From contig JAGAAW010000021.1 of assembly GCA_017615055.1 (NCBI GenBank), forward strand, positions 1-43,081: a DNA stretch of 43,081 bases, in the 5' to 3' direction. Positions 1-40,344 of the stretch are shown here, one piece after another (within the stretch, counting starts at the first letter, position 1; each line of letters opens with the position of its first letter). Both the position numbers and the translations under genes were made by a program. The notes below the pieces were generated by a model that saw only the letters and a program-made list of their open reading frames with translations, made no database searches and was not told the DNA's origin. The stretch comes from Fibrobacter sp. (GTDB taxonomy: Bacteria; Fibrobacterota; Fibrobacteria; Fibrobacterales; Fibrobacteraceae).

Positions 1-197
1 AAACCTCCCACGCCGAGCGCCATGTCGAGCTGGATACAGCCGGACGGGATGACGGGGATTTCTTCGACAGGCTGGCTGCCGAGGGCCATGATGGAACCTT
101 TACCATAATTCTTCTCGATCTGGGCGATTGCTGCCTCGACCGCTTTTGCCTTGTCGGCGGAAAGGTTGCTGGTGGGTGTCGTGTTCTTCTTTGCCAT
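1..197 (-). CDS. recA: Recombinase RecA, N-terminal fragment
   Basis: The reverse strand from 197 down to the window edge encodes 65 residues that read as the start of RecA: a lysine-rich N-terminus, then [14 protein letters not shown] and [16 protein letters not shown], which is the standard RecA lead-in to the ATPase core. The Walker A loop and the rest of the protein lie outside the window. RecA forms the strand-exchange filament on single-stranded DNA and triggers LexA self-cleavage in the SOS response. The ATG at 195-197 has GGAG six bases upstream. The gene sits directly downstream of a cinA/pncC-type gene on the same strand, an arrangement common in bacteria, but it also has its own promoter in the tail of that gene. 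Confidence 0.95.
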
Positions 198-228
198 ATT
201 GGACTCCATTTTTTGTTTTTCTTGTCTA

Positions 229-257
229 AATATACTATTTAGTGTTCACTTGTGCAA
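229..257 (-). promoter_or_regulatory. recA promoter overlapping a LexA-box-like sequence
   Basis: Reading the minus strand, TTGCAC (257-252) and TATATT (234-229) are separated by 17 bases, giving a good sigma-70-type promoter about 30 bases before the recA start codon. The -35 hexamer lies inside the palindrome CACTTGTGCAAGTG (247-260). The plus-strand sequence TGTTCACTTGTGCA (243-256) differs by one base from TGCNCN4GTGCA, the Fibrobacter LexA box as I recall it from the literature. SOS control of recA is therefore inferred. Confidence 0.6.
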
Positions 258-835
258 GTGCTTTTTTGTTTATTTAATAAAACAAATAGCCTGCACAACA
301 CCATATAAACGGATTTGAGCCTTATTTTGAGCCTATCACCTGCGAAAATTTTACAAAAAGCCTCATTTTGCACCGAGTTGTTACCATTTTTCCACGAAAT
401 TGCCATCCAGACGGTGCCCACGGGCTTGCCGGGTTCTGCCCCGCCGGGGCCGGCGATGCCCGAGGTGGATACCGCCCACTGGCAGCCGAACTTTTCAAGT
501 GCGCCCGCGGACATCTCCTTGACGGTCTGCTCGCTTACTGCCCCGAACTGCTCGAGAGTCTCGTGGCTTACCCCGAGGAGCGCTTCCTTGATCTCGTTCT
601 GGTAGGCGACGACCCCGCCGGCGAGCGCTGCTGAGGATCCTGCCTCGTTCACGATGCTGCTTGCGACAAGCCCGCCCGTGCAGGATTCCGCGGTAGCCAT
701 CATCTCGCCACGTGCGATAAGCTTTTCCTTGATGGCGTGGACCAGCTCGGCGATAGCCTCTTCAAGAAGGTTCTTGTCGATTTCCATACCTTCGATGTTC
801 GCTTCGTTGATGGCCTGTACGCTCTTCATTTTCAT
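239..835 (-). CDS. pncC: CinA C-terminal-type nicotinamide-nucleotide amidohydrolase (PncC family)
   Basis: This is a stand-alone CinA C-terminal domain of about 198 residues without the N-terminal MoCF-like domain of full CinA. The family hydrolyses NMN to nicotinate mononucleotide and ammonia in pyridine nucleotide recycling. Visible signatures are AESCTGG near residue 50 and the later [11 protein letters not shown] and KPVGTV blocks. The end of the protein, rich in Lys, Leu and Cys, is not typical of the family. Start choice is uncertain. TATATT at 848-843 (minus strand) lies seven bases before the ATG at 835, which suits a leaderless message. GGAG lies seven bases before an ATG at 829, two codons later. 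An upstream ATG at 865 would lie upstream of this promoter. recA follows on the same strand. Confidence 0.85.
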
Positions 836-991
836 ACTCCGTAATATAGAATTTATTTGTGTCAAAAAATGTCACAACAAAAGAAAAGTGAATTTTTTTT
901 GAAAAATATAATTATCATGAAGCTCCAGTGCATGCCCTTTCCCGCGAACCATCGTCAATCATCAATCATCAATTATCAATCAACTAATTAC

Positions 992-997
992 TATATT
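992..997 (+). promoter_or_regulatory. TATATT -10 element eight bases before a start codon
   Basis: TATATT is followed by eight bases and then the ATG at 1006, with no Shine-Dalgarno between. Transcription would begin at or next to the start codon. No convincing -35 is visible. The region just upstream (about 952-985) is a run of imperfect ATCATCAAT-type short repeats. Confidence 0.45.
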
Positions 998-1005
998 TCA
1001 AGACG

Positions 1006-2082
1006 ATGTATAACCGTCTTTTGTCCATAATCCTGTTTGCGTGCCTCGCCCTTGCGGGTGTGGCCGTGGCGCAGGCCGATTCGACGGTTGCGGCATCTGC
1101 CCCGGCAGACACGACGCTTTCCGAAACGGCGGAACCGGATTCCGGTGAGGTGGCAGAAGAGGTCCCGGCAGATACGGCTTTCGTGGGTGACCCGCTGGTA
1201 AAGGGCAAGACGGGCATCCGTTCTATCGATACGCTCCCTGTGAACGAGTGGGATATCCCGACAAAGCACAACTCGCTCGGGCTTACCATGCTCCTGAGCC
1301 TTTTCCCGGGTGGCGGGCAGTACTACACGGAACACTACGTGCGCGGTGGGTTCATCACGGGTATCGAACTCCTGCTGGTCTATGAGGTTTATTTCAACAA
1401 GTCGTGGCAGAAGGACCGCGTGCTCGAGCAGGCGCAGCCCTTCCGTGATACGGTCTCGATTTATTCGAAGCTTATCCGCGAGACGCAGGACCGTGACAGC
1501 ATTGCCTACTACCAGCAAAAGCGAAACGAGTATGCGAATCGTGTGCGCGAAAAGAGCGACAAGAAGATGGAACAGGAAGATTTGCGCTACGCCGAGAATG
1601 CGTGGCTGTTTGGCCTGCACCTGTACGGCATGATGGATGCGTTTGGAATCTGGTACAAAAACAATTACCGGAGTGTGGAACTCCGCGACATGAAAACTGC
1701 GGTGCTGCTCGGGCTTATCCCGGGGCTAGGCCAGATGTACAACGGCGAGTTCGGCAAGGCGGGGTTACTTTATATGGGACTCATCGGTGCCGCTGCGAGC
1801 ATCCACACCTCGCAGAATATGGTGGAATACTACCTCGACCGCAAGCATTTCTTGGAGAAGGAGAATTCCTCGTCGGAAGAGCTTGACCGAGTGAGCGAAC
1901 GCGTTACATACTACCGCAAGAACAGGAACCAGTACATCTGGGGACTTGCACTTATTTACCTGTATTCTCTTGGCGATGCGGTTGTCGATGCCTTGCTGAG
2001 CGATTTCGATAACCCGGTCCACTTCGCGCTGTTGCCGAAACTTACCGGCGGCGCGCAGGCACTGTTCTCGCTAGACTTCTAG
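1006..2082 (+). CDS. Membrane protein with two PGxGQ (DUF5683/TM2-like) modules
   Basis: This 358-residue protein begins with a signal peptide (LLSIILFACLALAGVAVAQA). A Ser/Thr/Ala/Glu-rich stretch to about residue 60 follows. The rest contains two similar modules. One starts at FPGGGQYYTEHYVRGGF (about residue 100) and the other at IPGLGQMYNGEFGKAG (about residue 237). Each continues into hydrophobic helices and a DAFGIWY/DAVVDALL-type segment. The P-G-x-G-Q-x-Y motif is that of DUF5683 and TM2-like proteins, whose function is unknown. A charged, probably helical segment separates the modules. Its TAG stop overlaps by four bases (shared CTAG) the stop of the convergent phosphatase gene. Envelope location is inferred from the signal peptide. 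Confidence 0.75.
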   Translation: MYNRLLSIILFACLALAGVAVAQADSTVAASAPADTTLSETAEPDSGEVAEEVPADTAFVGDPLVKGKTGIRSIDTLPVNEWDIPTKHNSLGLTMLLSLFPGGGQYYTEHYVRGGFITGIELLLVYEVYFNKSWQKDRVLEQAQPFRDTVSIYSKLIRETQDRDSIAYYQQKRNEYANRVREKSDKKMEQEDLRYAENAWLFGLHLYGMMDAFGIWYKNNYRSVELRDMKTAVLLGLIPGLGQMYNGEFGKAGLLYMGLIGAAASIHTSQNMVEYYLDRKHFLEKENSSSEELDRVSERVTYYRKNRNQYIWGLALIYLYSLGDAVVDALLSDFDNPVHFALLPKLTGGAQALFSLDF

Positions 2083-2696
2083 TCCATCACGAGCGGGGGC
2101 ATCTTGATGCCTTCGTGAATGGTCGTGAAACTCCCGCGGAAATGCCCCTCGCTGTTGCGCGTGAACTCGAAGCGCGTGACCATTGCGTAGCTGAACATAC
2201 CCTCGACAAAGACCTCGTCTGGCAGTCCGCACGCAAAGTGCTGGAGCGCGGCGATTACGCCCGCGTGGCTTACCCACAGGTACTCGCCGTTGTCGTCAAG
2301 CGTGTCAAGAAGTGTCTCTACGCGCTTGTCTACGTCGTGGAAACTTTCGCCCGTGGGGAACCTGTACCCGCGCCAGTCGCTTTTCCATGCCGCCATCTCG
2401 GTACGCGGCACGGCGGTGAGCTTTTGACCTTCCCAGGTGCCGAAGTTTATTTCCATCAGGCGGTCGTCTTTTTCGATGTCGAGCCCGGTGGCAACAGAAA
2501 CCTTTTCGGCGAGTCGCATGCACCGCAGGAGCGGGCTGCTGAAAAGGCGGGTCGGGTGGGCGCCAGCCTTCAGGTAGTCCTCGATGGCGCTGGAGGATTC
2601 TTCTTCGAATGTGGGGGATACGTCAAAGTCGAGTCGCCCGTAGCAGACGTCTTTCGGGTTGTAGGGCTTGGTGTGTCGAAAAGTCCAGAGGATCAT
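2079..2696 (-). CDS. Histidine phosphatase family protein (phosphoglycerate-mutase/CobC-like)
   Basis: The 205-residue protein has the fold signature of the histidine phosphatase superfamily. FRHTKP at residues 6-11 carries the catalytic RH pair. LFSSPLLRCMRLAEKV (about 52-67) contains the second conserved arginine region. LMEINFGTWEGQKL (about 83-96) matches the E-x-x-F-G-x-W-E-G block typical of alpha-ribazole phosphatase (CobC) and related enzymes. VSHAGVIAAL (about 143-152) supplies the second histidine. The length suits the CobC/GpmB branch, but no cobalamin genes are nearby, so the substrate is open. It is convergent with the PGxGQ membrane protein gene, and its promoter is not obvious. 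Confidence 0.85.
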   Translation of the reverse strand: MILWTFRHTKPYNPKDVCYGRLDFDVSPTFEEESSSAIEDYLKAGAHPTRLFSSPLLRCMRLAEKVSVATGLDIEKDDRLMEINFGTWEGQKLTAVPRTEMAAWKSDWRGYRFPTGESFHDVDKRVETLLDTLDDNGEYLWVSHAGVIAALQHFACGLPDEVFVEGMFSYAMVTRFEFTRNSEGHFRGSFTTIHEGIKMPPLVMD

Positions 2697-2726
2697 AAAA
2701 ACGTTGAAGGGGCCTAAATCTTGTGA

Positions 2727-2749
2727 ACAAAAAAAGCCCTTTGCAGGGC
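2727..2749 (-). terminator. Rho-independent terminator downstream of the SRP RNA
   Basis: The hairpin GCCCT/AGGGC (2736-2749) is followed on the minus strand by seven U residues (2735-2729). It lies just beyond the 3' end of the SRP RNA and would stop read-through into the phosphatase gene. Confidence 0.7.
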
Positions 2750-2754
2750 ATTAA

Positions 2755-2857
2755 AAAAGAATCCTAGGCGACCTGAGCACATAAAAATTCACAAGTCCGT
2801 TGCTGCTTTCGCCCTGGCGAGTTGCCCGCAAATAGTCATTGCGCAGGGCCTAGGACC
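2755..2857 (-). ncRNA. ffs: Signal recognition particle RNA, small bacterial type (4.5S-like)
   Basis: The minus strand encodes an RNA of about 103 nt that folds as one long hairpin. The 5' end (GGUCCUAGG) pairs with the 3' end (CCUAGGAUU), and CCUG pairs with CAGG just inside. The apex holds the invariant SRP domain IV signature: CAGG, then a GC-GAAA-GC tip, then AGCA (2816-2801), followed by ACGG. The CAGG/AGCA internal loop is the binding site of the Ffh M domain. The tip stem has two base pairs before the GAAA tetraloop, one fewer than the three in E. coli 4.5S RNA. A TATATT -10 sits seven bases upstream, and an oligo-U run at the 3' end agrees with a discrete short transcript. Confidence 0.85.
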
Positions 2858-2861
2858 ACTA

Positions 2862-2867
2862 AATATA
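2862..2867 (-). promoter_or_regulatory. -10 element of the SRP RNA gene
   Basis: TATATT on the minus strand, about seven bases before the predicted RNA 5' end near 2857-2855. A weak TTTAAG lies 17 bases further upstream as a possible -35. Confidence 0.55.
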
Positions 2868-3111
2868 GGAAAATTTCGGCGATTCTTAAAGGCCGGCATG
2901 CTCCAAATTGGAATGAAAAAGGCCTAAAATTCGCTTAAAAATGCAAAATGTTGCGATTTGGACAACATGTCCACGGCAAAGGTAAAATATTCGTTACCCG
3001 CTACGTAAAATTTTGGATATATTAATAATGACGGATTGTAAAAAATTCGTTTCTTGGTGTATTTGGAAAAGATTTTTTGATGTAACGAACCCTGTTTTCC
3101 AGGAGGCGATT
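2868..3111 (+). promoter_or_regulatory. Intergenic region and leader of the first giant adhesin gene
   Basis: This region separates the SRP RNA gene from the adhesin gene. It contains a perfect inverted repeat GGACA-ACA-TGTCC (2960-2972), a possible operator. A TATATT at 3018-3023 is the likely -10, implying a leader of about 80 bases ending in AGGAGG before the ATG at 3112. An in-frame ATA/ATG stretch extends upstream to 3013 but would lie within or before this promoter and has no ribosome site. Confidence 0.45.
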
Positions 3112-6100
3112 ATGTTGAAAGGGATGATAAATAAGATTTATTTGGCCATGGCCGTGCTCGGCCTGTTTGGCGGTGCTTTTGCCGCCAAGGTTGCCCCGCT
3201 GTATTTTGAGAGCCTTGGGAATGTGACTTCGGAAGATTCCGCTGCCCAGCAAGAGCGTTGGGAAGCCCTGATGAAATATAAATTGTGGGGAACGCATAGC
3301 CTTGATTTTTCGAATAATACGGTTTCGATTGCTGATGATGTGGGCTATAACGGAACTGCCGATGGTAACCTGTTGATGTATTATAATAGGCACCACATTG
3401 GTGGTCCGACCTTGGTTGGTGGAAATTTCACGTTTGTAAACTCCGATCACGATACACTTTCGGCTGGACCGGTTCGTATTCTTGGTAATCTCCAACTTTC
3501 TACGCAAACAGAAAATGTTATGCAAGGAGATTGGTGCGTTGGTGGTAGCATTACCGACCAGTATAATAGTAATCCTGATCCGACGCAGACTAATGTTGGT
3601 AAATGGAAAAATCTTGTAACGGGCAATGTTTACAATGACGGGCTCGCTGGAACGGACACCAATGTTTTGTATAGGAAATGCCCTTCAACCGTTCCTGAGT
3701 TGGAAACTGCGATGGCTGTTCCTGAATGGCCGGAACCTGCTTCGTGGGGCTCTGATGAGATTGCGATGAACAGTAACTATCCGAAAGAAGTTGCCTTTAT
3801 CCATGTTCCTCCTGATACCGTAGAAACGAATGAATATGGGACCTATGACAAGTACATTACCAACTTCACGATAGGTGGAAGCACCGGAAAGATTCTTTAT
3901 GTCTTAATGCCTCCCGGAGGCAAATTGACGCGTATTTATTCGAAGAATGGTTACAATTTCAGTAACTCCGCGAATGATATGAAAATTGTTGTGGCGTATG
4001 TAGAACCTGGTTTAGCCTTTGATCGCACTACGATGAAGTGGGATGTTGCTGAACCTGCTTCCATGACGGGTTATCCGACTCAGCCGGCGAATGGTTCTTA
4101 TTGGGAATTCTTGGACGATGCAAAAATCCATGTACTTTCAAATAAGGAGTATGCGGGTAATCTTCTGTTCTATACAAAAGAAAGTATTAATTGGAACTAC
4201 TGGGTAAGTGCTAGTTTCCAGGGCTCTTGGATTTCTAAGGGCACAATCAAGGTGGGCGGTCATTTCAAATTGGCTGGTCAGGTCATTGCGAACAATTTGA
4301 GGTTTGATGCCGATATTACGGGCGACTTCCGTTATGTCCCGTTTGATCCGCCTATATTGAACATTGACCCGGAAGTGCTCCAGAATGGCGCATTCCCCGA
4401 AAACAACGACGATGCGGTAATTCCGATATCGCTTGATACCGTTTCGCTCACGACGGTCAAATTCAATTACTGCTTCGACTTGAATCCGTCGCTTTCGACC
4501 GCTAGTGCTGCCGACTTTAAGAAGACGACGAAGTCAAAGTTCCCGATTTGCGAATGGAACGATACGACGTGGAGCTATGTCTATGAAAATGACGATCCCT
4601 CTATGCCTATAATAGATAGCGTGTATGCAAGTCATGTTGTCCATCACGATTCCGGCTATGTGGAAATCGCAGCTGGCGACTTGACTCCTGCTGATGCGTA
4701 TAAGGCGTACTTGCACGTGCTCATTGATGGACTCGAAGAAGGTGAAGAATACCTGCACATGAAGATATTCAACCTTGCGGGCGCAGTGCTCCCAGGTAAC
4801 CTGCTTGAAGGCCACTTCACGCTGAAGATTGTTGATTCGAATAATCCGCCGGTGACTACAGATGGTAGCGTGACGGGTACCGAAGATGTGGTGTACACCT
4901 TCAAGAAGAGCGACTTCGCGTACTCTTCTAGCAAGGGCTATGCAGAAACGGGCGTCATTATTGCGACGCTCCCGGGCAAGGGTACGCTTACCTACAAGGG
5001 CGGCTCCGTCACTGCTGGCCAGTTCATTCCGGTGGATTCCATCGGCGACCTCAAATACACGGGCAAGAAGGACGATTACGGGACTCCTACCACCACGTTC
5101 CAGTTCAAGGTGAGGGACGTAATGAATTCCACCTCGGGCGCTGCCGTGATGACGGTGAATCTCGCTGCGGTCAACGACGCTCCGAGCGCTACGGCTAGCG
5201 AGTTTACCATTGCGGAAAACTCTCCGGTGAATGCTACCGCTACGGGTACCCTCGTGGTGAAGGATGTCGACGACAATAAGTTCGTGTACAGCCTGGTGGG
5301 CGGTGCTACCAACGTGTTCAAGATTGATTCCACTACGGGCAAGATTTCGGTGAAGTCCGCGGTTCTCGATCACGAAACCAAGTCGACCTACACGGTGACG
5401 GTGCACGTGCGCGACATGAGCTCCACGACGACTCTTGCCGATACGCTTTCGTACAATGTCTCTGTGACCATCCGCGTTACGGACGTGAACGAAAAGCCTT
5501 CCATTGTGGATGCGAACCTCAGCGTTCCCGAAATCTGCGATTCCGGTACGGTTGTCGGCCCGGTCATTGCAAGCGAACTGGATACTGCTGCGGCATTTAC
5601 CCAGCTCACTTACACGATTGTCGAGACGGGCGTTCCGTTCGTGATGGATTCGAACATTGTCAAGGTGAAGGACCCGAGCAAGCTCAACTACGAGGCTGAT
5701 TCCGTGGTCACGTTCCATGTGGTGGTGAGTGACGGCCAGTACACCGATACTGCGGTCGTGACGGTGAAACTCACCGACGTGAACGAGCCGCCTCACTTTG
5801 ACGACAACATTCCGGCCCTCACGGTGGACGAGAATTCTCCGGCCGATACTCACGTGGGTACGGTGACTGCAAACGACGTGGACGGCACGGAAACGCTCGT
5901 GTACTCCATCATCGATGCGACGGGCACGTTCTACATTGTCGCCGAAACGGGCGAGATTAAGGTCGTTGCCGACAGCACCATTGACTACGAGACCAAGGCT
6001 ACCTACACGGTGCAGGTCGTGGTGACGGATAAGGAAGGCCTTACCGATACCGCTACGGTCACTATCAAGGTGAACGATGTGAACGAGGCACCTTCTATTG

Positions 6101-9063
6101 ATGATGCCGTGTTCGCAATCGACGAGAATTCCAAGAAGGGCGATTCCGCAGGTGCGGTCATCGCTTCGGACCTCGATACTGCGGCGCAGTTCCGCATACT
6201 CACGTACGAGATTATAGAGACGGACGTGCCGTTTGAATTGGATTCCAACATCATCAGGGTGAAGGAACCCGGTAAACTGGATTACGAGACGGATTCCGTG
6301 TTCACGTTCCATGTGGTGGTTACCGACCAGGATGGCCTCTCGGATACCGCTACCATTACGGTGAACCTCAACGACACTCCGGAACCGCCTAAGTTCGATG
6401 ACAAGACTCCGACGTTCACGGTGGACGAGAATGTGCCTGCGGGTACGCATGTGGGCGATGTGGTTGCGAGCGACGTGGATGACGACGATACGCTCACCTA
6501 CAGCATCAAGGATCCGACCGTTACCTTTATTATCAACGAGGCGACGGGCGAGATTACGGTGAAGGCCGACAGCACCATCGATTACGAGACGAAGAACGAA
6601 TACACGGTGACCGTGGTGGTGACCGACAAGTACGGCTATACCGATACGGCGACCGTGACCATCAAGGTGAACGACGTGAACGAGGCTCCGGATGTTCCTG
6701 ACCAGACCATAACGGTGAAGGAAGATGCCGAGGTGGGTACCGACGTGGGCCACATCAAGGCTAGCGACCCGGATACTGCGAAGGCGTTCAGCACGCTGAC
6801 CTACGAGCTCGTGGAAGAAAGCGAACAGTTCGACGTGAAGGATGATGGTACCGTGGTGCTCAAGAAGGGTCTTGACTACGAGACGGATTCCGTGTACGTA
6901 ATCAAGGTACGCGTGACCGACGGCGAACTTGCCGATACCGCCCTCGTGACGGTGAAGATCGGTAACGTTGTCGAGAAGTCCGAACTGGAAATCACCCGTG
7001 CCGAGACGAAGGATTCCGTGTGGCTCAATCCGGATACGGTGTTCATCAATACCACCGACCTCTGCATCGAATGGAAGGCCGACGGCAAGCTCATGGGTCC
7101 CGATTGCGACCTTGAACTCCACGAGGGCGAAAACGTCATCATAAAAGAATACCAGGCCCCGGACAAGGATAAACCTGGTATCGATACGCTTGTCGTGTAC
7201 GTGAGCACGAAGAGCCCTGTCGTGACGGTTACCGCAGTTGTCGATGACGGCAAGAAGCCGAATATTTTCACGATTGTGGAAGAACAGCAGTCCGCCGATA
7301 CGGCGTTCTACGTGAATTCTAAGAAAAACGATATCATGGTGAAGGTGAAGGACCCGGAATCGGGCGCAAGGGATTCGTTCGTGGTCAAACTTGACCTCGA
7401 TACTGTGAGTATCCCCGCGAAGACGTTCACGAGCACGCTTGACGGCTTTACCAGCGCCTCGCTTACCCTGAACGAGAATCCGGCTACCGGCGTGACGCAC
7501 ACGCCTATCAATGACGACAAGGTTGCGGTACGCTACACCGAGGTGGTGAACGGCCAGGAACTCACCGTTACCTACTACACCGACAAGGAAGGGAACGTCA
7601 TCAGGAACGAAGATGGCGTGCAGGTGATGACCGTTGCCTACGAGACCGAGGTCAAGGGCAAGAAGGTCGTGATCTCGTACAACGTGGATGCCGTGACGGG
7701 CGAGGTGGTGAAGACCTCTGGCGGTTACGCGAAGCCGGAAGACTCCGCTATCGAAAGCAGCAGCTCGGGCAAGTCTGGCGACAAGTCTAGCAGTTCGGGC
7801 AAGTCCGAAGGCAAGGCAGGAACGTTCGAGAACGCTGTGGTGTTCACGGTTACCTACGACTACGTGGATGAAGCCGGCAACACGATTACGGTGGCGTACG
7901 GCGTGGATGCCGAAGGCAACCTCGTGAAGAACGAAGACGGCAATCTCGGCTACGAAGTGAGCTACACGTACACGAACAAGTACGGCAACTCCGCGACTCA
8001 GTCCGTGTTCATCGTGCTCGACCAGGTGCCGCCCAAGGTGGAAATCCTCTTCCCGCTCGAAGGCGACGTAATCTACTCGAACTTCGTGGACGTGAAATGG
8101 ACCGTGGATATCGGCGACGGCCGTGGCGCCGTTGTGCAGGATACCCTCATTACGCAGGGCCTTGTGAAGGGCGGCAATGCGATCGTGCGCTTCTACCGCG
8201 ACAAGGCGGGCAACGAGGCTAGCGATACGGTGCGCGTCATCATGAAGAACGCGAAGGATGTGGATATCTCCATCGAGCAGGCGGTGACCGAGATTACGAA
8301 GGACAAGGTTGCCGAGTACTACGCGACGAACGAGCCTGAAGAAGGCGAGACATTCGCAATCACTATCTACAACTCCAAGACCGAAAAGGAAGTGGAAACA
8401 CTTGTGGGCGGTGGATACAAGACCAAGACCGGCAGCGGCGACGAACCGTACCCGGGACTTACCGGTCACCTGGGCCCGACTCTCGGAATCGAGACGAAGG
8501 TGCCCACGATAAATGCGGTGGGTGGCCTTGCTACCCTCGACGACATCATCGGTTCCGACGGCCTTGTCCCGCTTGAGGGCGTGGACGCCGAGGAGAGCGA
8601 GAAGGTGACTGTGGAACAGTACGTGCAACAGTACTGCAGTGACGAGTTTGCCGAGAACGTTGGCTCGGATCTCTCGAAGGCGAACCTCTACACGACCAAG
8701 ATGTACGTGAAGATCTGGATCTACACGAGCCTTGGCCAGTTTGCGGACTACTACGCGTTCACGCAGGACCTGAACAATCCGGAATACGTGAACGACGCGG
8801 GCCTGCTGACGCTCTACTTCGAGATGAAACCCGACAAGGACGGCAACGTGCGTTCCGAGACGGGTAGGCTCTATGCGACGGGTGCATACGTGTTCCGCAC
8901 GGAAGTCGAGATGAAGTCGATGCTCCGCTGCTCGGTGCCTCCGTTCGTGAAGACTTCCGGCGGCATGGAACCCGAGAAGCCCTCCAACAAGATGGGCTCG
9001 TCGCGCGTCGTCAAAGATGAGCTGCTGAAGAGTTTCGGCTACAAGCGCCCCAACATGAAGTAG
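3112..9063 (+). CDS. Giant secreted cadherin-repeat protein 1 (putative adhesin)
   Basis: A 1,983-residue surface or secreted protein. The start at 3112 is set by AGGAGG five bases upstream and by the signal peptide that follows (YLAMAVLGLFGGAFAA). In order: a unique N-terminal domain (about 25-415) with Gly-rich strands resembling choice-of-anchor-A domains; a Calx-beta-like domain (about 418-580); a cadherin-like domain beginning TGTEDVVYTF (about 583-690); six cadherin repeats (about 692-1288) with DENSPAGT, DxD, LDYET and DVNE calcium-site motifs; an Ig-like region; a Ser/Gly/Lys linker (about 1548-1568); and a C-terminal region ending FGYKRPNMK. The N- and C-terminal regions match those of the next gene. 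Binding to cellulose, matrix or neighbouring cells is inferred from architecture only. Confidence 0.85.
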   Translation: MLKGMINKIYLAMAVLGLFGGAFAAKVAPLYFESLGNVTSEDSAAQQERWEALMKYKLWGTHSLDFSNNTVSIADDVGYNGTADGNLLMYYNRHHIGGPTLVGGNFTFVNSDHDTLSAGPVRILGNLQLSTQTENVMQGDWCVGGSITDQYNSNPDPTQTNVGKWKNLVTGNVYNDGLAGTDTNVLYRKCPSTVPELETAMAVPEWPEPASWGSDEIAMNSNYPKEVAFIHVPPDTVETNEYGTYDKYITNFTIGGSTGKILYVLMPPGGKLTRIYSKNGYNFSNSANDMKIVVAYVEPGLAFDRTTMKWDVAEPASMTGYPTQPANGSYWEFLDDAKIHVLSNKEYAGNLLFYTKESINWNYWVSASFQGSWISKGTIKVGGHFKLAGQVIANNLRFDADITGDFRYVPFDPPILNIDPEVLQNGAFPENNDDAVIPISLDTVSLTTVKFNYCFDLNPSLSTASAADFKKTTKSKFPICEWNDTTWSYVYENDDPSMPIIDSVYASHVVHHDSGYVEIAAGDLTPADAYKAYLHVLIDGLEEGEEYLHMKIFNLAGAVLPGNLLEGHFTLKIVDSNNPPVTTDGSVTGTEDVVYTFKKSDFAYSSSKGYAETGVIIATLPGKGTLTYKGGSVTAGQFIPVDSIGDLKYTGKKDDYGTPTTTFQFKVRDVMNSTSGAAVMTVNLAAVNDAPSATASEFTIAENSPVNATATGTLVVKDVDDNKFVYSLVGGATNVFKIDSTTGKISVKSAVLDHETKSTYTVTVHVRDMSSTTTLADTLSYNVSVTIRVTDVNEKPSIVDANLSVPEICDSGTVVGPVIASELDTAAAFTQLTYTIVETGVPFVMDSNIVKVKDPSKLNYEADSVVTFHVVVSDGQYTDTAVVTVKLTDVNEPPHFDDNIPALTVDENSPADTHVGTVTANDVDGTETLVYSIIDATGTFYIVAETGEIKVVADSTIDYETKATYTVQVVVTDKEGLTDTATVTIKVNDVNEAPSIDDAVFAIDENSKKGDSAGAVIASDLDTAAQFRILTYEIIETDVPFELDSNIIRVKEPGKLDYETDSVFTFHVVVTDQDGLSDTATITVNLNDTPEPPKFDDKTPTFTVDENVPAGTHVGDVVASDVDDDDTLTYSIKDPTVTFIINEATGEITVKADSTIDYETKNEYTVTVVVTDKYGYTDTATVTIKVNDVNEAPDVPDQTITVKEDAEVGTDVGHIKASDPDTAKAFSTLTYELVEESEQFDVKDDGTVVLKKGLDYETDSVYVIKVRVTDGELADTALVTVKIGNVVEKSELEITRAETKDSVWLNPDTVFINTTDLCIEWKADGKLMGPDCDLELHEGENVIIKEYQAPDKDKPGIDTLVVYVSTKSPVVTVTAVVDDGKKPNIFTIVEEQQSADTAFYVNSKKNDIMVKVKDPESGARDSFVVKLDLDTVSIPAKTFTSTLDGFTSASLTLNENPATGVTHTPINDDKVAVRYTEVVNGQELTVTYYTDKEGNVIRNEDGVQVMTVAYETEVKGKKVVISYNVDAVTGEVVKTSGGYAKPEDSAIESSSSGKSGDKSSSSGKSEGKAGTFENAVVFTVTYDYVDEAGNTITVAYGVDAEGNLVKNEDGNLGYEVSYTYTNKYGNSATQSVFIVLDQVPPKVEILFPLEGDVIYSNFVDVKWTVDIGDGRGAVVQDTLITQGLVKGGNAIVRFYRDKAGNEASDTVRVIMKNAKDVDISIEQAVTEITKDKVAEYYATNEPEEGETFAITIYNSKTEKEVETLVGGGYKTKTGSGDEPYPGLTGHLGPTLGIETKVPTINAVGGLATLDDIIGSDGLVPLEGVDAEESEKVTVEQYVQQYCSDEFAENVGSDLSKANLYTTKMYVKIWIYTSLGQFADYYAFTQDLNNPEYVNDAGLLTLYFEMKPDKDGNVRSETGRLYATGAYVFRTEVEMKSMLRCSVPPFVKTSGGMEPEKPSNKMGSSRVVKDELLKSFGYKRPNMK

Positions 9064-9082
9064 CTTGTCGAATATACGATTT

Positions 9083-9140
9083 AAAAAGATCCCTTGTCAT
9101 TCTGGAGGCCGTAGGCCGATAGAATCACGGGGATCTTCTA
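9083..9140. repeat. Palindromic intergenic repeat, possible terminator
   Basis: Just after the adhesin stop codon, AAGATCCC (9086-9093) pairs with GGGATCTT (9130-9137). ATTCT/AGAAT and GGCC/GGCC form inner stems. The sequence TGTCATTCTGGAGG inside it belongs to the same family as elements near 20546-20690 and 33033-33129. A short T-rich stretch follows, so it may also terminate transcription. Confidence 0.55.
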
Positions 9141-9365
9141 TTATATATAGTGTGTGCCCTCCACCTGCCAAAAAGTGTAAAAGCTTATCATTGCAAACAA
9201 AATTTTACAAAAGTGTGTGAGGAATGTCACATTTGGGAAGAAACGCCCCGAAAAATGGCCTGAATTGTTCCATTTTTTTTGCAATAGCTCTTTGAATGTA
9301 ACAATTTTTTAGTATTTTTACTAATGTGTGGGGATTTGGTCTAACCTTATCCTGTGGTGGATAGT
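9141..9365 (+). other. AT-rich leader region of the second giant adhesin gene
   Basis: I see no gene in this stretch. It is AT-rich with runs of T and A. TTGAAT (9292) followed by TATTTT (9313) has only a 15-base spacer, so the promoter is unresolved. GGTGGA near 9356-9361 precedes the ATG at 9366 and probably serves as the ribosome site. Confidence 0.35.
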
Positions 9366-12300
9366 ATGAAGAAGAAAATACTCGGACTTGCAATATTCCT
9401 AATTGGAATAGGCGCTTCATTTGCAATGGATGTGGCTCCGCTTTACTTCGTTGATGCCCAAGGGAACCGTATTGCGGCAAACCTGCAGCAGGAATACTGG
9501 AATTATCTCGTCAAGTATAAACTGTTCGGGAACGATTTTGTAAAGACCGGAAACCGCGTTATCATTAACGATGAATCGGGCTGGACCGGATCCAATGGTT
9601 ATTTTAAAGCTGAACAACCGGATGGAAATGGAACTTCGGTTGGTACTCAGCTGGGTGGACCTGTTGTTGTTGCTGGAAATATAACTGTTGGACAGGACTA
9701 TAAGTTTACGACTGGACCTGTACGAGCAGAGTCTTTTACGTTTGTTGATAATTGTGGTACCTGTTATTTTGGGGCTCCGATATGTTTAAATAATACAACG
9801 GTTACTAGTCTAAGTGGGAATTCGCTAAATGGGAACACGGGCTTCCAGGCACAACCAATTAGTAGCTGTCCTGATCAGCCTTCTGCAAATACCGCTGTTA
9901 GCATTCCTCGTCTTGATTGGCCTGCCTCTCCGACTGCAAGCGATATTCTAATTAGTGCGAATAACGGTGAGCAGAAAATCATTGTGCCTGAAGCCGAAAA
10001 TGGAAGCAAGGACCCCTATGATTTGTACATAGATAATATTCATACAGGTATTGGCGGTACTAACGGCGCTAAAATTATTGTGAGTATGCCTGCAGGTGGT
10101 CGTTTGACTCGTATCTTTGTACATCAGATACAGTTGGGAAACCATACTGTTATTCAAATCGTTTATAGGACTCCGCAAGAGGATGGTTCTGTTGTTGAAG
10201 TTCCTGCTGAAAAGTATACGGGTAATCTGTTGTTCTATACAGATCATGACATAAGCATTAAAAATACGGACAACAGTGAGCTTCTGGGAACATATGTTTC
10301 TACCGGAAGGATTTTCTTGCAGAGTAACATTAACTTTGCTGGACAGTTGATTGCTAATGAACTGGTGGTTGGTAACGAATTTGATGGCCGAAGCTTTGTT
10401 TTTGTTCCGATTGATCCGCCGGTCTTGGACTTGAAGCCTCAGGCCGATACTCCGCTTGAATTCCCTGAAAACGATTTGCTGGTAAAGGTTCCCATTGCGC
10501 TCGATACCCCCGCTCCGGCAGATGTGTTCATTGACTACTGCTTTGATTTGCAAAATTCGTCGGCGAAGGAAAGTGACTTTAAGCTGGAAGATGGATATTC
10601 GTATCCCAAATCGAAGGGCCATCTGTTCCCCATATGTGGGCAGGGCATGGGCAAGGTGACAATCCTTAAAGATGCAAAAACTCCTGCAGATGCTCCTGAT
10701 GTTAGTGTGTGGATTAATGTCGCTAAGGACGAATTGGTTGAAAGGCCGAATGAAACTCTTCGCTTGAAAATCACGAATATTTCTGGTGCAGTGTTGCCGG
10801 GTAATAAGTTGGATGGTTATTTCGACTTGATTATTGTCGATGCGAATGTTGAACCGACTAGCGAAGACTTTGAAATCATTGCAACGGAAGATGAAGTCTT
10901 TATATTTGATTCTTCCATGTTCAAGTATGAATCTGCCTTTGATAAGGTTGAACAGGGCGTCGTGATTACGTCGCTTCCCGAAAAGGGTTTCTTGTTGAGT
11001 AATGGCGACACGCTTACAAGCTCTGACTTGAATAAGTTTATTCCGATTAATGAAACGACAAACATAGATTTGCAATTCATTGCTGCAAAGGATGAATATG
11101 GAGTTTCTCCGGCTTATACTTCCTTTACCTTCAAAATGAAGGATGCGGATAATGTCGTGTCTGAAAAGCCTTACACCGTTACGGTTAAGGTAAATCCGGT
11201 GAACGATCCTTTGACTGTGAACAATCCGACATTTACGGTCAATGAGAATATTGACGGAGAAACTGTTGGCAATACTGTTAACGGAAAAATCACCGTGAAG
11301 GATATCGATGACACGCAGTTCACGTATGCATTTGATACGAACGATGCAAACTACACTAAGGTCAGCGGGAAATTTGTAATTAACCCGAGTTCGGGTGTAA
11401 TTACCGTTAAGGGCGGTGTTACGCTTGATTACGAAGCTCTTGACGCTGATACAGTGATGTCGATTGCGGTTAAGGTGACTGATGCTGCAATTACGACCGG
11501 TGGTGTTGGTTCGGTTACGGCAACTTCCAATATTAAGATTAAGGTTATCGATGTGAACGAAGCTCCGGTTGTTCGCGACACGGCCTTCACTGTGGATGAA
11601 AACGTTCCTGCTGGTACCGAAGTCGGTACATTGGAAGCATCTGATCCGGATATTAGGAACTCGGATTTTGGAACCCTGTACTTCTCCATTGATGAAAATG
11701 CGGATGGCAATCCGGCGACTAATGTTCCGTTTGCAATTGACAACGATGGAAAAATTACGGTTACCGCTGATGACGCACTTGATTTCGAAACGAAGCCCAC
11801 TTGGGTAATTCATGTGACTGTTACTGACGGCTTCATCCCGCAGACGGTCGAAGTGGTTATCAATCTCAATGACCTGAACGAACCTCCGCATATTGATGAC
11901 ATCCTGGATCAGTATGTCGTTGCGGAACATTCTGCAAATGGTTGGCCTGTTACTTCTCCGGCTATCAATATTTCTGACCCGGATGCTGGCGATAGCCAGA
12001 GCACCCTGAGTGCAAGGATTGAAGGCAAGAACACTTCTGATGCGATGGCCGAACAGCTTTTTGAAGCTACGGTTGCTGCTGCACAGGATGGTTCCTTGAA
12101 GATCATGATTACTGTTAAGGACAGTGCAAAGCTCAACTACGAAACGTTGCTTGCAAGTGGTGCCGATACGGTAAGTTACGAAATTCGCCTTATCCTCACG
12201 GACCGTGACGGTGGAACGGGTAGCTTTGCCGATACCGCAATCACGACCATCTATGTAAAGGATATTAACGAAAAGCCGACTGCTAACGACGCTGAATTCA

Positions 12301-15300
12301 CGATTGCCGAAAATTCTGCTGCCGGTACGTTGGTGGGTAAGGTCGTGGCTTCTGATCCGGATGTTGCTCATACCGCATACGGTACGCTCTACTACAGCTT
12401 CATGAATGAAACGACTCAGTTCGTTATCGATGGGGCTACGGGCGTGATTACTGTTGCTAATGGTGCTACGCTTGATTACGAAACGACTCTTCCGGACCAC
12501 AAGATTACCCTCGATGTAGCTGTGACGGATAGGGAGTATACTGAAATTGCAAAGGTGACCATTACGCTTACGGATTCGACGGAAAATCCTGAAATCAACT
12601 GCATCGAAGGCGATATCGATTGCAATGGCCCGTTCGAGATTAAGGAAAATTCCAAGACGGGAACGGTTATCCATTCGTTTGCGATTTCTGACGTGGATGC
12701 CGGCGATGCAGGTAAGTTGACCGCCACCCTTACGGATAACGGAACGACCAAGACGGGTGCCGATACGTTGTTCGATGTGGTCGTGAATACGGCCCAGACG
12801 CAGGTAAGCATAATCGTTAAGGATAGCACGAAGCTTGACTTTGAAAAGATTAACGCACTTCACGAAGTGGTTATCACGGTTATTGATGATGCCGGCCTTA
12901 CCGATACGCTCATCCGTCAGATTCAGGTGCTCGACGTGAATGAAGCCCCGGTCATTGACGACCGAAACTTTACTCCGAACGAGAATATTGCTAATGATTC
13001 GCTTGTCGGTGAAATGAAGGTGACTGAACCGGATACCAAGAATGTCGAGTTCCGCCATCTGGACTTCTCTATCATCGAGAACGTTCCGTTCTACATGGAT
13101 TCGAACAAGGTGAGGGTTGGCGATGCAAGCCTGCTTGACTTTGAAACGACCCCGGAATTCACTTTCCGAGTGGTAGTGAAGAACTGCGAGAAGAACGCTT
13201 CTACGGGCAAATACACCGACAGGTGCCTTGCTGATACGGCTAACGTGAAGATTTCTCTCCAGAACGTAAACGAGGATCCGGATATCAAGTGCATTGCCGG
13301 CGATACCAAGTGCAACGGCCCGTTCGATATTAAGGAAAATTCCAAGACGGGTACCGAAATACACTCGTTCGCAATTTCCGATGTTGATGCTGACGATGCC
13401 GGCCAGTTGACTGTTGAACTTACCGACTCGAAGGAAGGTGGCATTGCCGCTACGCTCTTTGATGTGAAACTGAACTCCGCGAATACGGAAGTGACCATCG
13501 TGGTAAAGGATAGCGCAAAGCTTAACTATGAAACGGTGGATTCCTCGTATGTGGTTATCCTTACGCTTAGGGACTCCCATAACGCTACTGACACGCTTAT
13601 TCGCAAGATTAACGTGATTGACGTGAACGAGACTCCGACGGTTTCGAACAAGACCGTGACGAAGCAGGAAAACCTTCCGAAGAATACTGTTGTTGCAACC
13701 CTTACGGCGTCTGATCCGGATACGAAGCATGTAGAAAAGTTCGGCCATCTGGACTTCTCTATCATCACTCCGAACATGCCGTTCTGGATGGATTCGAACA
13801 AGGTGAAAGTTGCAGATTCGACCGCACTTGACTACGAGACGACCCCGGTGTTCAAGTTCAAGGTTGAGGTGAAGAACTGCGAGAAGAACGCCTCTACGGG
13901 CAGGTACACTGAGAATTGCCTTGCCGATACGGCTACCGTGACGGTCAAGCTCAGTAACAAGAACGAAAACCCGGATATCAAGTGCATCGTGGGCGATACC
14001 AATTGCAATGGCCCGTTCGATATTCCGGAAAATTCGAAGACGGGTACTCCGATACACTCGTTCGCAATTTCTGACGTGGATACTAACGACGTTGGCAAGT
14101 TGACTGTTGAACTTACCGATTCGAAGACTAATGGCATTGCCGCTACGCTCTTCGACGTTGTGCTGAACTCCACGAATACGGAAGTGACCGTCGTAGTGAA
14201 GGATAGCTCGAAGCTTGACTACGAAGCGGTTGACTCCATCTTTGTGGTTGTCCTTACGGTAAAGGATTCTGCTGGCCTTACCGACACGCTCGTCCGCACG
14301 ATCAACATCAAGGACGTGAACGAAAAGCCGACGATTGCCGACAAGAGCGTGAAGCAGCCGGAAAACTTCCCGAAGGATTCCGTGATTGCGGAAGTCTCTG
14401 CGACGGATCCTGATACGAAGCATGTGGATGATTACGGCCACCTGGATTACTCCATCATTACTCCGGACATGCCGTTCTACATGGATTCGAACAAGGTTAG
14501 GGTAGGCGATTCTACTAAGCTTGACTTCGAAACGACTCCGGTGTTCACCTTCAAGGTGGAAGTGAAGAACTGCGAGAAGAACGCCTCTACGGGTAGGTAC
14601 ACGGATCGTTGCCTTGCCGATACCGCTACTGTGGTTATCGAACTTAAGGATGTCAACGAAACTCCGAAGATTATCATTGATGATGGTCCTGACGGTGACG
14701 ACGATAGCGACTCTCTCTGTGTTGCGTTCTGCGATACGACCAGCCGCGGCCACACCGACGATAGCACGCTTACCGTATATATCAACGAAAACAGCGCTAA
14801 CAACGCGAAGGTGTTTGCCTACGTGGTTTCTGACGAAGACGCAGGTGATTTGAGTAACCTCACGCCGAGCCTGAAGGATAATGACGGAACTGGCGCGGAT
14901 AGCCTCTTCAAGGCCGTGATGGTGGTTGAAGGCGGCAAGACCAAGTTGGCCGTTGTTGTGCCCGATGGTTCGAAACTTGACTTTGAAAAGGTCAAGCCGC
15001 TGCACGAGGTGACTGTGTATGTTACCGACCCGGATGGCTTGCAGGATTCTATTATCCGCAGGATCCTGGTTATCGACGTGAACGAAATGCCGGATGTCAA
15101 GGATGCCGAATTCGCAGTGGAAGAAAACTCCCAGAAGGGCGACTCTGTCGGCGTGGTCGTGGCTAGTGACCCGGATATACTTAATCCGGCTTTCGGTACG
15201 CTCTACTACTCGCTGCTTGATTCCACTGTGGGTGCTGCAAGCAAGTTCGAAATTGACAACAAGGGCAAGATTACGGTTGCCGAAAACGCTGGCCTCAACT

Positions 15301-18300
15301 ATGAAGCGGATTCCGTGTTCTACGTGAAGGTTCGCGTGACCGACAATGAACTTTCCGATACCGCCCTCGTGACCATCAAGCTCAAGGATACCGACGAAAA
15401 GCCGAAGATTATCGTTGACGATGATGACGATGGCGACGACGATAGCGAAGATGACTCGCTCTGCATCGCTCACTGCGATACGACTGACCGTGGCCATGAT
15501 CCGGAAACAGGGAAAACTCTCACCGTGGGTGTCAATGAAAATTCTCCGGAAGGGAAGGTGGTTCTCCAGTACTATGTGGATGACGAAGATGCTGGCGATG
15601 CTGGCTCGCTTATCCCGTCCTTGGGCCTGATTGAAACCAACGTGACGACTGGCGTGACTGTTGACGACCTCTTTGAAATCAGCAAGGTGGATACCATCGT
15701 CAATGGCGAAAAACGGACGAAGATTGTCGTGACAGTCAAGGATTCTGTACTTCTTGACTACGAAGCGCTTCGTAACGCAAAGAGCAGCGACGATCCGGAA
15801 CCACAGTTTAAGGTGGCTGTGATTGTGTCTGAACCGGACGACGGCCGCGAGGAAATTCTGAAGGATACGATTATCCGCGTTATCCAAATCCTGGATGTGA
15901 ACGAATCTCCGCTCTTCACTGTGGAAACGTGTGAAATTGCCGAAAACAACCAGATCGGCGATTCCCTCGGCCGCATTGAGCACCCGAGCGATATCGACTC
16001 GATGTCTAAGATTGTCGACTACTACGACAACCAGTTCAGGTTGGTTGATGGCGATACCGCCCTGTTCGACCTGAAGTATGGCGAACCTATTGACGGGCGT
16101 CCGAACATCATAGTTGTGGCTAAGGTCGTATTCGACTGCGAAGCGGAACCGTACAAGAACAAGTGTGGTCTCGACAGTGCATTCCATGTCGTGATTGATT
16201 ACTTCGACAAGAACGACACGACCATCAAGACTACGCATGATGTTCCGATCAAGCTTATCGACGTGAACGAAAAGCCGACGATTACCACGGATTCTGTGGA
16301 AGTCAAGGAGAATGTGGAGAAGGGTACCGTTGTTGATACCATCAAGGCCACTGACCCCGATGTGTATGACTCTGTGCTGACCTACACGCTTGTTGAAGAC
16401 GAGAGCGGCTGCTTCGATGTCTCCGAGCGCGGTGTTATCACGGTCAAGGTGGACAACTGCCCGGCTCTGGATTACGAAAAGAATCATGAACTCCCGATCA
16501 CGGTGAAGGTGACCGACAATGGTACCGACGGCGAAGGCGAAGAAACTTTGTCCGATACCAAGACGATCTACGTGAAGATCACCGACGTGAACGAGAAGCC
16601 GAATATTCCGGACCAGTCCATTACGGTCTCCGAAGATACCGAAGTCGGTACCGAGGTGGGTGAGATCGAGGCTTCTGACCCGGATACCTCGAAGGCCTAC
16701 GGTACTTTGACCTACGAACTCGTGGAAGAAAGCGAAACGTTCGAAGTCAAGGAAGACGGTACGATTATCCTGAAGGATACTCTCGACTACGAGAAGGATT
16801 CCGTCTACACGATCAAGGTGCGCGTGACCGACGGCGAACTTTCGGATACGGCGACAGTCACTATCAAGATTGGCAACGTTATTGAAACGCCTGAAGTCGA
16901 GATTACCCGCGCCGAGACGCAGGATTCGACCTGGAAGAGCCCGGATACGCTCTACATCAATACGGTCGATATCTGTGTTGACTGGGAAGCCCGTAACAAG
17001 AAGTCGGGAGCCGTGCTGAAGGATACTACCGAGTGCATGGTTCTTGATGAAGGCGAGAATATCATTGTCAAGAAGTTCGAAGATCCGTCGATGGACTTCC
17101 CGGGTTACGATACGCTCGTTGTCTACGTGAGCAGGGCTACCCCGATTGTTTCTATCCGTAAGGCAGAAGACGACTCCAGCATCCCGAACATCTTCACGGT
17201 GGTGGAAGAGTCTGCACAGAGCGACACCGCGTTCTATGTGAACGAACGCAAGAACGAAATCATCGTTACGGTGACGGATCCGGAGTCTGGCTCTAAGGAA
17301 TCGTTCACGACGAAGATTGAACTCGATACCCTGACAGTGCCTACAAAGACCTTCACGGGTACGATGGCCGGCATTACCGACTTTGGCCTTGCCCTTACCG
17401 ACAATCCGTCTTCGGGCACGAGCCGCACGCCGATAAATGGCGAAAAGATCGCAGTCTCTTACACCGAAGTGGTTAACGGCCACACGGTGACGGTGACCTA
17501 CTACACCGACGACAAGGGCGAGATGATTGCCAATGAAGAAGGTGTTGTCGAGATGACTGTTGCCTACAAGGATACCATCGGTGGTCACGAGGTGACGATT
17601 TCTTACCAGGCCGATGCCGTTACGGGTGCTGTAATTAAGACCTCTGGCGGTTACGCCAAGCCGGAAGATTCTGCTATCGAAAGCAGCAGCTCGGACAAGG
17701 ACGGTTCCTCTTCTTCGGGCAAGGATGGCAAGTCTAGCTCTTCTAAGGGTGGCGACAAGACGTTCGAGAACGAAGTGGTGTTCACCGTGTCTTATGAGAC
17801 GGTTGACGAAGCTGGCAATGCGATGACGGTTTCTTATGGCGTGGATGCCGAGGGCAACATCGTCCGTAACGAAGACGGCAACATCGGTTACCTGCTGACC
17901 TACACCTACAAGAACAAGTACGGCAATACCGGTACGCAGTCGCTGTTCATCGTGCTCGACCAGGTGCCGCCGACAGTCAAGATCCTCTACCCGACCGAAG
18001 GCGAAGTCATCTACTCGAACTTTGTCGACGTGAAGTGGACGGTGGATATCGGCGATGGCCGTGGCCCGATCGTTCAGGATACCCTCATTACGCAGAGCCT
18101 TAACAAGGGTGGTAACGCGATTGTCCGCTTCTACCGCGACAAGGCTGGCAACGAGGCTAGCGATACCATCCGCGTGATTATGAAGAACGCGAAGGATGTG
18201 GATATCGCTATCGAGAAGCCGGTTACCGAAGTCACGCAGGATCTCGTGGCCGAGTACTACGCTACTCACGAGCCGGAAGACAACCAGACGTTTGCTGTGA

Positions 18301-19004
18301 CTATCTACAACCCGAAGACGGATAAGGAAGTCGAAACCGTTATCGGTGGTGGATTCGACAACAAGCCGGGTACTGGCGAGGAACCGTATCCGGGACTCAC
18401 TGGCCACCTTGGCCCGACTCTCGGAATCGAGACGAAGGTGCCGACGGTGAATGCCGTGGGTGGACTTGCTACCCTCGATGACATCATCGGCAAGGACGGA
18501 CTTGTTCCGCTCGAAGGTGTCGAAGCCAACTCCAGTAAGAAGGTCACTGTCGAAGAGTACGTGGAAAACTACTGTACTGACGAGTTTGCCGAGAACATTG
18601 GTTCTGACCTTTCTCGCGTGAACCTCTTCAAGACCAAGATGTACGTGAAGGTCTGGATCTACACGACCCTGGGCGACTTTGTGGACTACTACACGTTCAC
18701 TCAGGAACTGGACAATCCGGACTACATGAGCGATGCGGGCCTCCTGACGCTGTACTTCGAAATGAAGCCGGATAGGGATGGTAACGTGCGCACGGCATCG
18801 GGACGCCTCCTGGGTACGGGTGCCTATGTCTACCGCACCGAGGTCGAGATGAAGTCCACGCTGCGCTGCTCCGTGCCTCCGTTCAAGGAAAATGCCGACG
18901 GCGGCTGGGAACCGGAAAAGCCTTCCAACAAGGCCGGCGCTGCTCGCTCCGTCAAGGAAGACATGCTGAAGAACTTCGGTTACAAGCGTCCGGAAATGAA
19001 GTAA
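9366..19004 (+). CDS. Giant secreted cadherin-repeat protein 2 (putative adhesin)
   Basis: A 3,212-residue protein with the same plan as its upstream neighbour. It has a signal peptide ([16 protein letters not shown]), the N-terminal domain starting VAPLYF, a Calx-beta-like domain (about 359-492), a cadherin-like domain (about 499-614), about 16 cadherin repeats (about 616-2509), a Ser-rich linker (about 2772-2797) and the shared C-terminal region ending FGYKRPEMK. The start at 9366 is preferred over GTG at 9354 because the signal peptide begins there. Repeats 5-10 form three two-repeat blocks with paired cysteines. Two repeats near 14660-15900 carry Asp-rich insertions. Tandem duplication with the preceding gene followed by repeat expansion is inferred. 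A function in adhesion is likely but unproven. Confidence 0.85.
12587..14665 (+). repeat. Three tandem ~690-bp two-cadherin blocks inside adhesin 2
   Basis: The Cys codon before the GD..CNGPF motif occurs at 12600, 13290 and 13983, giving periods of 690 and 693 bases. Each block has an A-type repeat (CI.GD..CNGPF, then [17 protein letters not shown]) and a B-type repeat (HLDFSII or HLDYSII, Fx[21 protein letters not shown]). Nucleotide similarity between the blocks is obvious by eye, pointing to fairly recent duplication. Confidence 0.8.
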
Positions 19005-39462: not shown

Positions 39463-40344
39463 ATGGCAAGGTTTTCGAAAAGCATTTTATTCGCGGTACT
39501 CGCGCTGGCGGTGGCCTGCATGGCTGCCCCCTCGGGCGAGGCTTCCCCGATGCCCGCAGGTGAACCTGCGCCCTTGAGCGTAGGTGCCGAAACCCGCCAC
39601 TACATGTTTACGCTCGAGAAGGACCTGCCGCTCACGTTTTTTGCCGCCTTTGGGAGTATCTACGGGAACTACAGGCTAACGCACATGTCGGTAACTGCCC
39701 CCGAGGACATGCCGCAGCGGGATGACCTTATGCCCTGGGACCGCGCCGTTATGGGCCGTTACAACAAGACTGTAGCGGAAGTGAGCGACTGGTTTGTTGT
39801 ATTCGGGGCGATGCCGCTTGCCCTGGGGGCTGCGTCGTGGTACCGGGGGGATGCCTGCGGGCGCGACTTTGCCGTATATTCCCTTATGTTTGCACAGGCG
39901 CTTGCCCTGCAGAGTGCGCTCAACCTTACGTTCCGTTCCATGAAGTTCTGGCCGCGCCCCTACATTTATGCCGAGGATGGGGCGGGGGCCGAGGCCGCGG
40001 AAAGTGCCGAGGGCGAGGCCTACGGGAGCTTTTTTAGCGGGCATGCCTCGGCGGCGTTCACGGTTGCCGTGTTTACGGGCGAGTGGTTCTCGGAAATGTA
40101 CCCGAATTCTGCCTACAAGCCGCTTGTCTGGGCGGGCACGCTCTCGCTGGCGGGCTTTGTGGGGGCGTTGCGTATCGCTGCCGGCAAGCACTATCCGAGC
40201 GACGTGATTGTGGGTGCCCTGGCGGGTACCGGCGTCAGTTTTGCAATCATCGGTATACACAAAAAATCGGTACGAATTGGCCCGGTTGCCCTCTCCGGAC
40301 TCTGGGCCGGGCCTAGCGCCGCCGGCGCAAGTTTTGCATTTTAG
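39463..40344 (+). CDS. PAP2-family membrane phosphatase
   Basis: A 293-residue protein with signal-like N-terminus (SILFAVLALAVACMAAPS) and several hydrophobic helices. The three-part phosphatidic acid phosphatase signature is present: RSMKFWPRPY (motif 1), SFFSGHASAAF (motif 2 with the catalytic His) and ALRIAAGKHYPSDVIVGAL (motif 3). An acidic insertion (AEDGAGAEAAESAEGEA) sits between motifs 1 and 2. PAP2 enzymes remove phosphate from lipids such as undecaprenyl pyrophosphate, lipid A or phosphatidic acid. The substrate cannot be told. The promoter region is shared with the divergent HTH-methyltransferase gene. A repeat element follows the stop codon. Confidence 0.9.
   Translation: MARFSKSILFAVLALAVACMAAPSGEASPMPAGEPAPLSVGAETRHYMFTLEKDLPLTFFAAFGSIYGNYRLTHMSVTAPEDMPQRDDLMPWDRAVMGRYNKTVAEVSDWFVVFGAMPLALGAASWYRGDACGRDFAVYSLMFAQALALQSALNLTFRSMKFWPRPYIYAEDGAGAEAAESAEGEAYGSFFSGHASAAFTVAVFTGEWFSEMYPNSAYKPLVWAGTLSLAGFVGALRIAAGKHYPSDVIVGALAGTGVSFAIIGIHKKSVRIGPVALSGLWAGPSAAGASFAF

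Follow-up and report, generated by a model that had tools for sequence, protein, structure and literature searches.

A tandem pair of giant cadherin-repeat proteins in Fibrobacter whose N-terminal domains are exchanged between species

Fibrobacter is a plant-fibre-digesting gut bacterium and must stick to fibre; to our knowledge it uses no cellulosomes in breaking down cellulose, and its adhesins are still ill defined. Giant cadherin-like adhesins are already known, and Caldicellulosiruptor, the source of the tapirins, is Gram-positive. The tapirins themselves are adhesins with a beta-helix fold that bind microcrystalline cellulose with an affinity in the micromolar range (PMC7142884). In the polysaccharide degrader Saccharophagus degradans, the large cadherin-domain proteins CabC and CabD are reported to bind carbohydrate and one another (as described in PMC12153261). 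Within Fibrobacter itself, FSU_2931/Fisuc_2377 (annotated 'Cadherin') and FSU_2932 ('Cadherin domain protein') were among the biotinylated cell-envelope proteins of F. succinogenes S85 (Raut et al. 2015; PMC4619616). FSU_2932 (317.91 kDa, pI 4.69, GRAVY -0.422) was recovered on microcrystalline cellulose only, with two peptides, and FSU_2931, for which a mass of 22.06 kDa is printed, on glucose (four peptides) and acid-swollen cellulose (two peptides).

The gene pair and its relatives

The window, that is, the whole 43,081-nucleotide stretch of Fibrobacter DNA analysed here, carries on its forward strand the two adjacent open reading frames that the original prediction had placed there: gene A, the short member (1,983 residues; ATG at 3112, stop at 9063), and gene B, the long member (3,212 residues; ATG at 9366, stop at 19004). 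In gene A a signal peptide recognised by inspection (residues 1-24; 3112-3183) is followed by an N-terminal domain (3184-4341) that is predicted from an AlphaFold model to be an ice-binding-protein/tapirin-like beta-helix and that the DNA comparison with the relative G063 identifies as a swapped cassette. There follow a Calx-beta-like domain (4345-4848), located by structural alignment with CALX CBD1 (3ead), six cadherin repeats (5182-6975; Pfam and a custom HMM), a Ser/Gly/Lys-rich linker (7750-7824; by inspection) and, from sequence comparison, a conserved C-terminal module of 411 residues (7828-9060) with a basic FGYKRP tail at its end. Gene B has its signal peptide at residues 1-20 (9366-9425; by inspection), its own swapped N-terminal domain, a predicted beta-helix, at 9426-10421 (boundary from the alignment with gene A), 16 cadherin repeats, some with paired cysteines, at 11214-16886 (custom HMM), and its C-terminal module at 17766-19001. 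The common order of signal peptide, N-terminal domain, Calx-beta-like domain, cadherin repeats, Ser linker and C-terminal module is thus borne out by Pfam, the custom HMM, predicted structure and inspection. Pfam Cadherin (PF00028) matches both proteins (E 1.3e-63 for A and 7.8e-88 for B), LDxE and DxD motifs occur in nearly all repeats, and the linkers between repeats are of the DVNExP type. The further claim that only repeat number differs greatly between the two proteins was wrong: the C-terminal 411 residues are 77% identical, the N-termini about 30%, and it is the N-terminal domains that differ most and that are swapped between species independently of the rest.

Change of repeat number by slippage was considered and rejected, since tandem DNA repeats were not reported inside the genes and long members of one clade keep a length of about 2,890-2,950 residues in many species. 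Very long antisense open frames lie opposite genes B and A (9948-18407 and 4534-8628, both on the minus strand; 2,819 and 1,364 residues) and are probably by-products of codon usage. A small bacterial SRP RNA (RF00169), just above the gathering score, lies between the histidine-phosphatase gene and gene A (2759-2855, minus strand), and elsewhere in the window a FecR-domain gene (28999-30717) contains short repeats rich in Ala, Lys and Glu (30055-30238).

Other genomes have the pair as well. The C-terminal module was found in 78 of 80 Fibrobacter genomes. A search of 41 genera of the phylum found it in 13, with strong matches confined to the same family; the N-terminal profile is almost confined to that family (nine genera), and the phylum-wide searches recovered little beyond the window's own family. 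The 78 genomes that supplied genes comprise 75 Fibrobacter genomes and three from other genera, many of them draft or metagenome assemblies and most of the named relatives from the gut. Tandem copies were present in 45, a single gene in 26 and separate genes in seven, some of the single and separate cases sitting at contig ends; among genomes of the genus at least 90% complete the respective counts were 30, eight and four. The shorter gene comes first at 47 of 48 tandem junctions, with a median gap of 269 bp. Copy number is not fixed at two, as single, triple and quadruple arrays also occur. The window's own genome has a third paralogue of about 1,490 residues with two cadherin repeats by the custom HMM (G000:C81:6170-10555, locus L068), and in one relative further open frames bearing the N-terminal domain (2,229 and 1,659 residues; G018:C128:25949-35904) lie away from the usual locus. 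A histidine-phosphatase gene stands upstream in many loci, including one in another genus, which indicates that the site is old, and single-copy relatives in other genera suggest that the duplication occurred within or near Fibrobacter.

Long members in the set (315.6-320.3 kDa, pI 4.59-4.72) fit the values published for FSU_2932. A short member would not have the mass printed for FSU_2931, which may have been misprinted. FSU_2931 and FSU_2932 are the apparent S85 counterparts of the pair, compared by description: their orthology is read from adjacent locus tags and physical properties (the mass, pI and GRAVY of FSU_2932), next to the cadherin annotation and signal peptides. Their recovery by cell-envelope biotinylation, in few peptides, and the retention of the pair in relatives support the earlier idea of a surface system duplicated into short and long forms.

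Predicted structure of the tip and the C-terminal module

Structure prediction of the N-terminal region, proposed originally as a check, gave a model with a beta-helix followed by a Calx-beta fold (570 residues, pLDDT 83.5, pTM 0.85). The first 386 or so residues of the model resemble the ice-binding protein FfIBP (7ehk; Z 15.2, 3.0 A over 198 residues) and the tapirins (4wa0, Z 13.2; 6n2c, Z 12.3; 6n2b, Z 11.6), and residues 388-555 or thereabouts resemble CALX CBD1 (3ead; Z 11.0, 2.5 A over 108 residues, 22% identity). Foldseek alone returned no match for the N-terminal domain at E<=0.001, the fold claim resting on re-alignment with VIA-align 2. A sequence search of solved structures returned nothing useful for either end of the proteins, and the Calx-beta Pfam model gave no match at E<=1, this domain being clear in the predicted structure only. 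PF11999 (Ice_binding) matched weakly in three of 35 relatives (best E 6e-4) and not in the first window protein. The N-terminal region is therefore best described as a predicted ice-binding-protein/tapirin-like beta-helix with a Calx-beta domain behind it. Such a likeness shows a fold, not a ligand; the same fold binds ice, and ice binding by this domain is implausible. The role in cellulose attachment that had been proposed for the pair is plausible, as suggested by the tapirin/ice-binding fold of the model and by the recovery of the S85 long member on microcrystalline cellulose only.

The model of the C-terminal region is less certain (pLDDT 82, pTM 0.59). PorU (Z 8.0) and PorZ (Z 7.1) are among its best structural matches, at scores that unrelated beta-sandwich proteins also reach, and are at most suggestive. 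In sequence, the end of the module is matched by the C-terminal ends of this genome's own fibro-slime proteins (96% probability, E 1.9e-9). The fibro-slime domain itself (TIGR02148) was not matched in the pair, nor was a cadherin match found in the fibro-slime proteins. Two of these (1,245 and 1,246 residues) are encoded in tandem elsewhere in the genome (L178, 817-8474). An RTX adhesin exported by a type I system was rejected, as neither gene has a Pfam RTX match at E<=1 and both have Sec-type signal peptides by inspection.

Exchange of the N-terminal domain

Among close relatives, sliding protein identity is 85-99% over the C-terminal parts and falls to 30-60% over the first 300-500 residues. 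At the DNA level the window and the named contig of G063 are 93% identical over 1-3290, with no alignable DNA at 3291-4147 (gene A) or 9412-10398 (gene B); the remaining aligned stretches of the pair are mostly 86-88% identical, identity dropping to 66% where the repeats of gene B begin. Against G043, gene B has no alignable DNA at 9411-11306. In both relatives the signal peptide of gene A is kept at the locus while the next domain is different. The controls behave otherwise: the N-terminal domain of the third paralogue is, unlike that of the pair, kept at 92-97% among close relatives, and a fibro-slime protein can be aligned from end to end (87-91% in G063 and G043).

Across 138 proteins, with N-terminal domains compared over a fixed 330-residue segment, C-terminal identity is at least 90% in 29 between-genome pairs, and in 21 of these N-terminal identity is below 70%. 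At 50% identity the N-terminal domains, or tips, fall into about 40 clusters. The reverse is seen too: some N-terminal domains differ by a dS of 0.02-0.06 between species in which the backbone has reached saturation (dS >1), as in the short gene of G059 and G020 (N-terminal dS 0.02, C-terminal 1.44, neighbouring gene 1.21) and in G017 and G074 (0.06 and 1.71). Within the pair of G076 and G077, only about 1 kb, the short-gene tip, is reduced to 53-73%, the rest being 94-100% identical except for one stretch at 89%. G076/G077 and G041/G044 are natural tip-swap pairs, in which it is mainly the tip or tips that differ within the locus. G042 has its long-gene tip in common with G067 and its short-gene tip in common with G075. 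The trees agree with this mosaic, as N- and C-terminal trees have only 5 of 39 splits in common for A and 7 of 39 for B, and the A and B subtrees of the C-terminal tree 22 of 39. In 133 of 136 genes the N-terminal DNA has a lower GC content than the DNA for the C-terminal part. The N-terminal domain is thus a swappable cassette, exchanged between species while stalk and base stay, and the two cassettes of the pair assort independently. The simplest reading is horizontal allelic replacement through recombination in the flanking conserved sequence, a DNA route that we infer.

Other sources of tip diversity were rejected. Intragenomic cassette switching does not fit seven genomes of 100% stated completeness, in which silent N-terminal copies were not detected and each gene has one N-terminal domain, and recent conversion of tips from A to B does not fit N-terminal identities within one genome that have a median of 30% and reach at most 52%. 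Omega within tip classes is about 0.07-0.4 for pairs with usable dS, so there is no sign of positive selection by point mutation; one near-identical tip pair gave an omega of 1.5 with dS near zero.

Possible functions and known systems

We consider it moderately probable that the pair consists of a long and a short surface adhesin with polymorphic, recombining distal tips. Both proteins would be exported by the Sec route through their signal peptides, and the conserved C-terminal module, which ends in a segment common to fibro-slime surface proteins, would anchor them on the outside of the cell. The stalk, made of about six or 16 cadherin repeats whose motifs make stiffening by Ca2+ probable, would bear the Calx-beta domain and, at its end, the predicted beta-helix that makes the contact; a conserved C-terminus and a variable N-terminus suggest that the N-terminus is distal. 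Recombination between species in the conserved signal-peptide and Calx-beta/cadherin sequence on either side of the tip would replace stretches of about 1 kb or more, in one gene irrespective of the other, and each strain would present two unrelated tips at different heights. A plant cell-wall polysaccharide would be the most likely ligand.

Counting against this adhesin reading, the tip is more variable than an unchanging ligand such as cellulose would call for, and polymorphism of this degree would equally suit escape from enemies or recognition of self. It may be that adhesion is the tip's job and that exposure to enemies is what makes it vary, the tip being a phage receptor or a feature recognised by rumen protozoa, with rare tips escaping. 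The number of tip clusters and the repeated replacement between species resemble the outcome of frequency-dependent selection, such diversity would be superfluous for one fibre ligand, and the flanking backbone is not replaced along with the tip. Purifying selection within tip classes nevertheless suggests conserved binding functions, and escape alone does not require unrelated tips to be kept on two adhesin genes per genome; we regard this account as unlikely. Distinctly improbable in our judgement is recognition of self or kin, with homotypic contact between cells through cadherin stalks and polymorphic distal domains, matching tips marking compatible strains as allorecognition proteins do. 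The two independently assorting cassettes per strain, their strong polymorphism, the cadherin repeats and the tandem array would all suit it, but the annotated neighbours show no linked effector or exchange machinery, and the predicted tip resembles ligand-binding beta-helices.

A doubtful though possible alternative concerns the base rather than the tip, namely that the proteins are type IX secretion (T9SS) substrates anchored through a divergent C-terminal domain and serving mainly as a cellulase scaffold; its export part is compatible with the adhesin reading. The genome encodes SprA and about 35 Por tails, all over cut-off, and PorU and PorZ are among the best structural matches of the C-terminus, if only at Z 7-8. 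A type IX tail at the end of the pair was nonetheless rejected, as the pair is absent from the genome's TIGR04183 matches at E<=0.1, an hhalign comparison with 18 T9SS tails from this genome puts the probability at 0.2%, and the end matches fibro-slime C-termini instead. A 6,963-residue open frame in the same genome (G000:C134, around 39898-40068; L187) does end in such a tail. Finally, the mosaic could be an artefact of tips misassembled in metagenome bins, given the many draft or metagenome assemblies. This is barely credible: the pattern is also seen between genomes 94-100% complete in 9-70 contigs (G076/G077, G041/G044, G042), near-identical tips recur in separately assembled species, and neither the third paralogue nor the fibro-slime control shows it.

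A bolder version, which we think rather improbable, is that the tandem giant proteins form a recognition system throughout the genus, presenting horizontally traded, independently assorting recognition domains at two heights, much as a polymorphic identity code on the cell surface would; if true, it would govern which cell attaches to which fibre or neighbour. More immediately, the analysis names a conserved candidate adhesin pair whose apparent S85 counterparts are expressed and whose predicted tip fold is related to known cellulose adhesins. Trading of the tip between species, with stalk and base retained, has left natural swap pairs (G076/G077 and G041/G044), with which hypotheses on ligand, phage receptor and kin recognition become directly testable.

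Each known system shares part of this design. The likeness to the Caldicellulosiruptor tapirins is one of fold alone (Z 11.6-13.2), in a host unrelated to Fibrobacter, and that to the DUF3494 ice-binding proteins, although closer in fold, comes without a sequence match in the window proteins and with Fibrobacter relatives that are mostly from the gut. The fibro-slime proteins of the same genome (TIGR02148) have a homologous C-terminal segment but lack cadherin repeats, as the pair lacks the fibro-slime domain. CabC and CabD are alike as large cadherin-domain proteins of a polysaccharide degrader; their description in PMC12153261 mentions neither a beta-helix tip nor a pair. The giant repeat adhesins MpAFP, LapA, SiiE and BapP (PMC3492233, PMC12153261, PMC7493085) likewise have a very long stalk of beta-sandwich domains with Ca2+ motifs, presumed to be an extender. 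The pair differs from them in the lack of an RTX match, in its tip fold, in its tandem short and long members, in the exchange of tips between species and in its Sec-type signal, though BapP also has a predicted Sec signal. For FSU_2931 and FSU_2932, the literature searched mentions no function, pair concept or tip exchange, nor does it describe elsewhere a short and long pair with independently exchanged beta-helix tips. What is new here, set against these systems, is the N-terminal domain as a swappable cassette.
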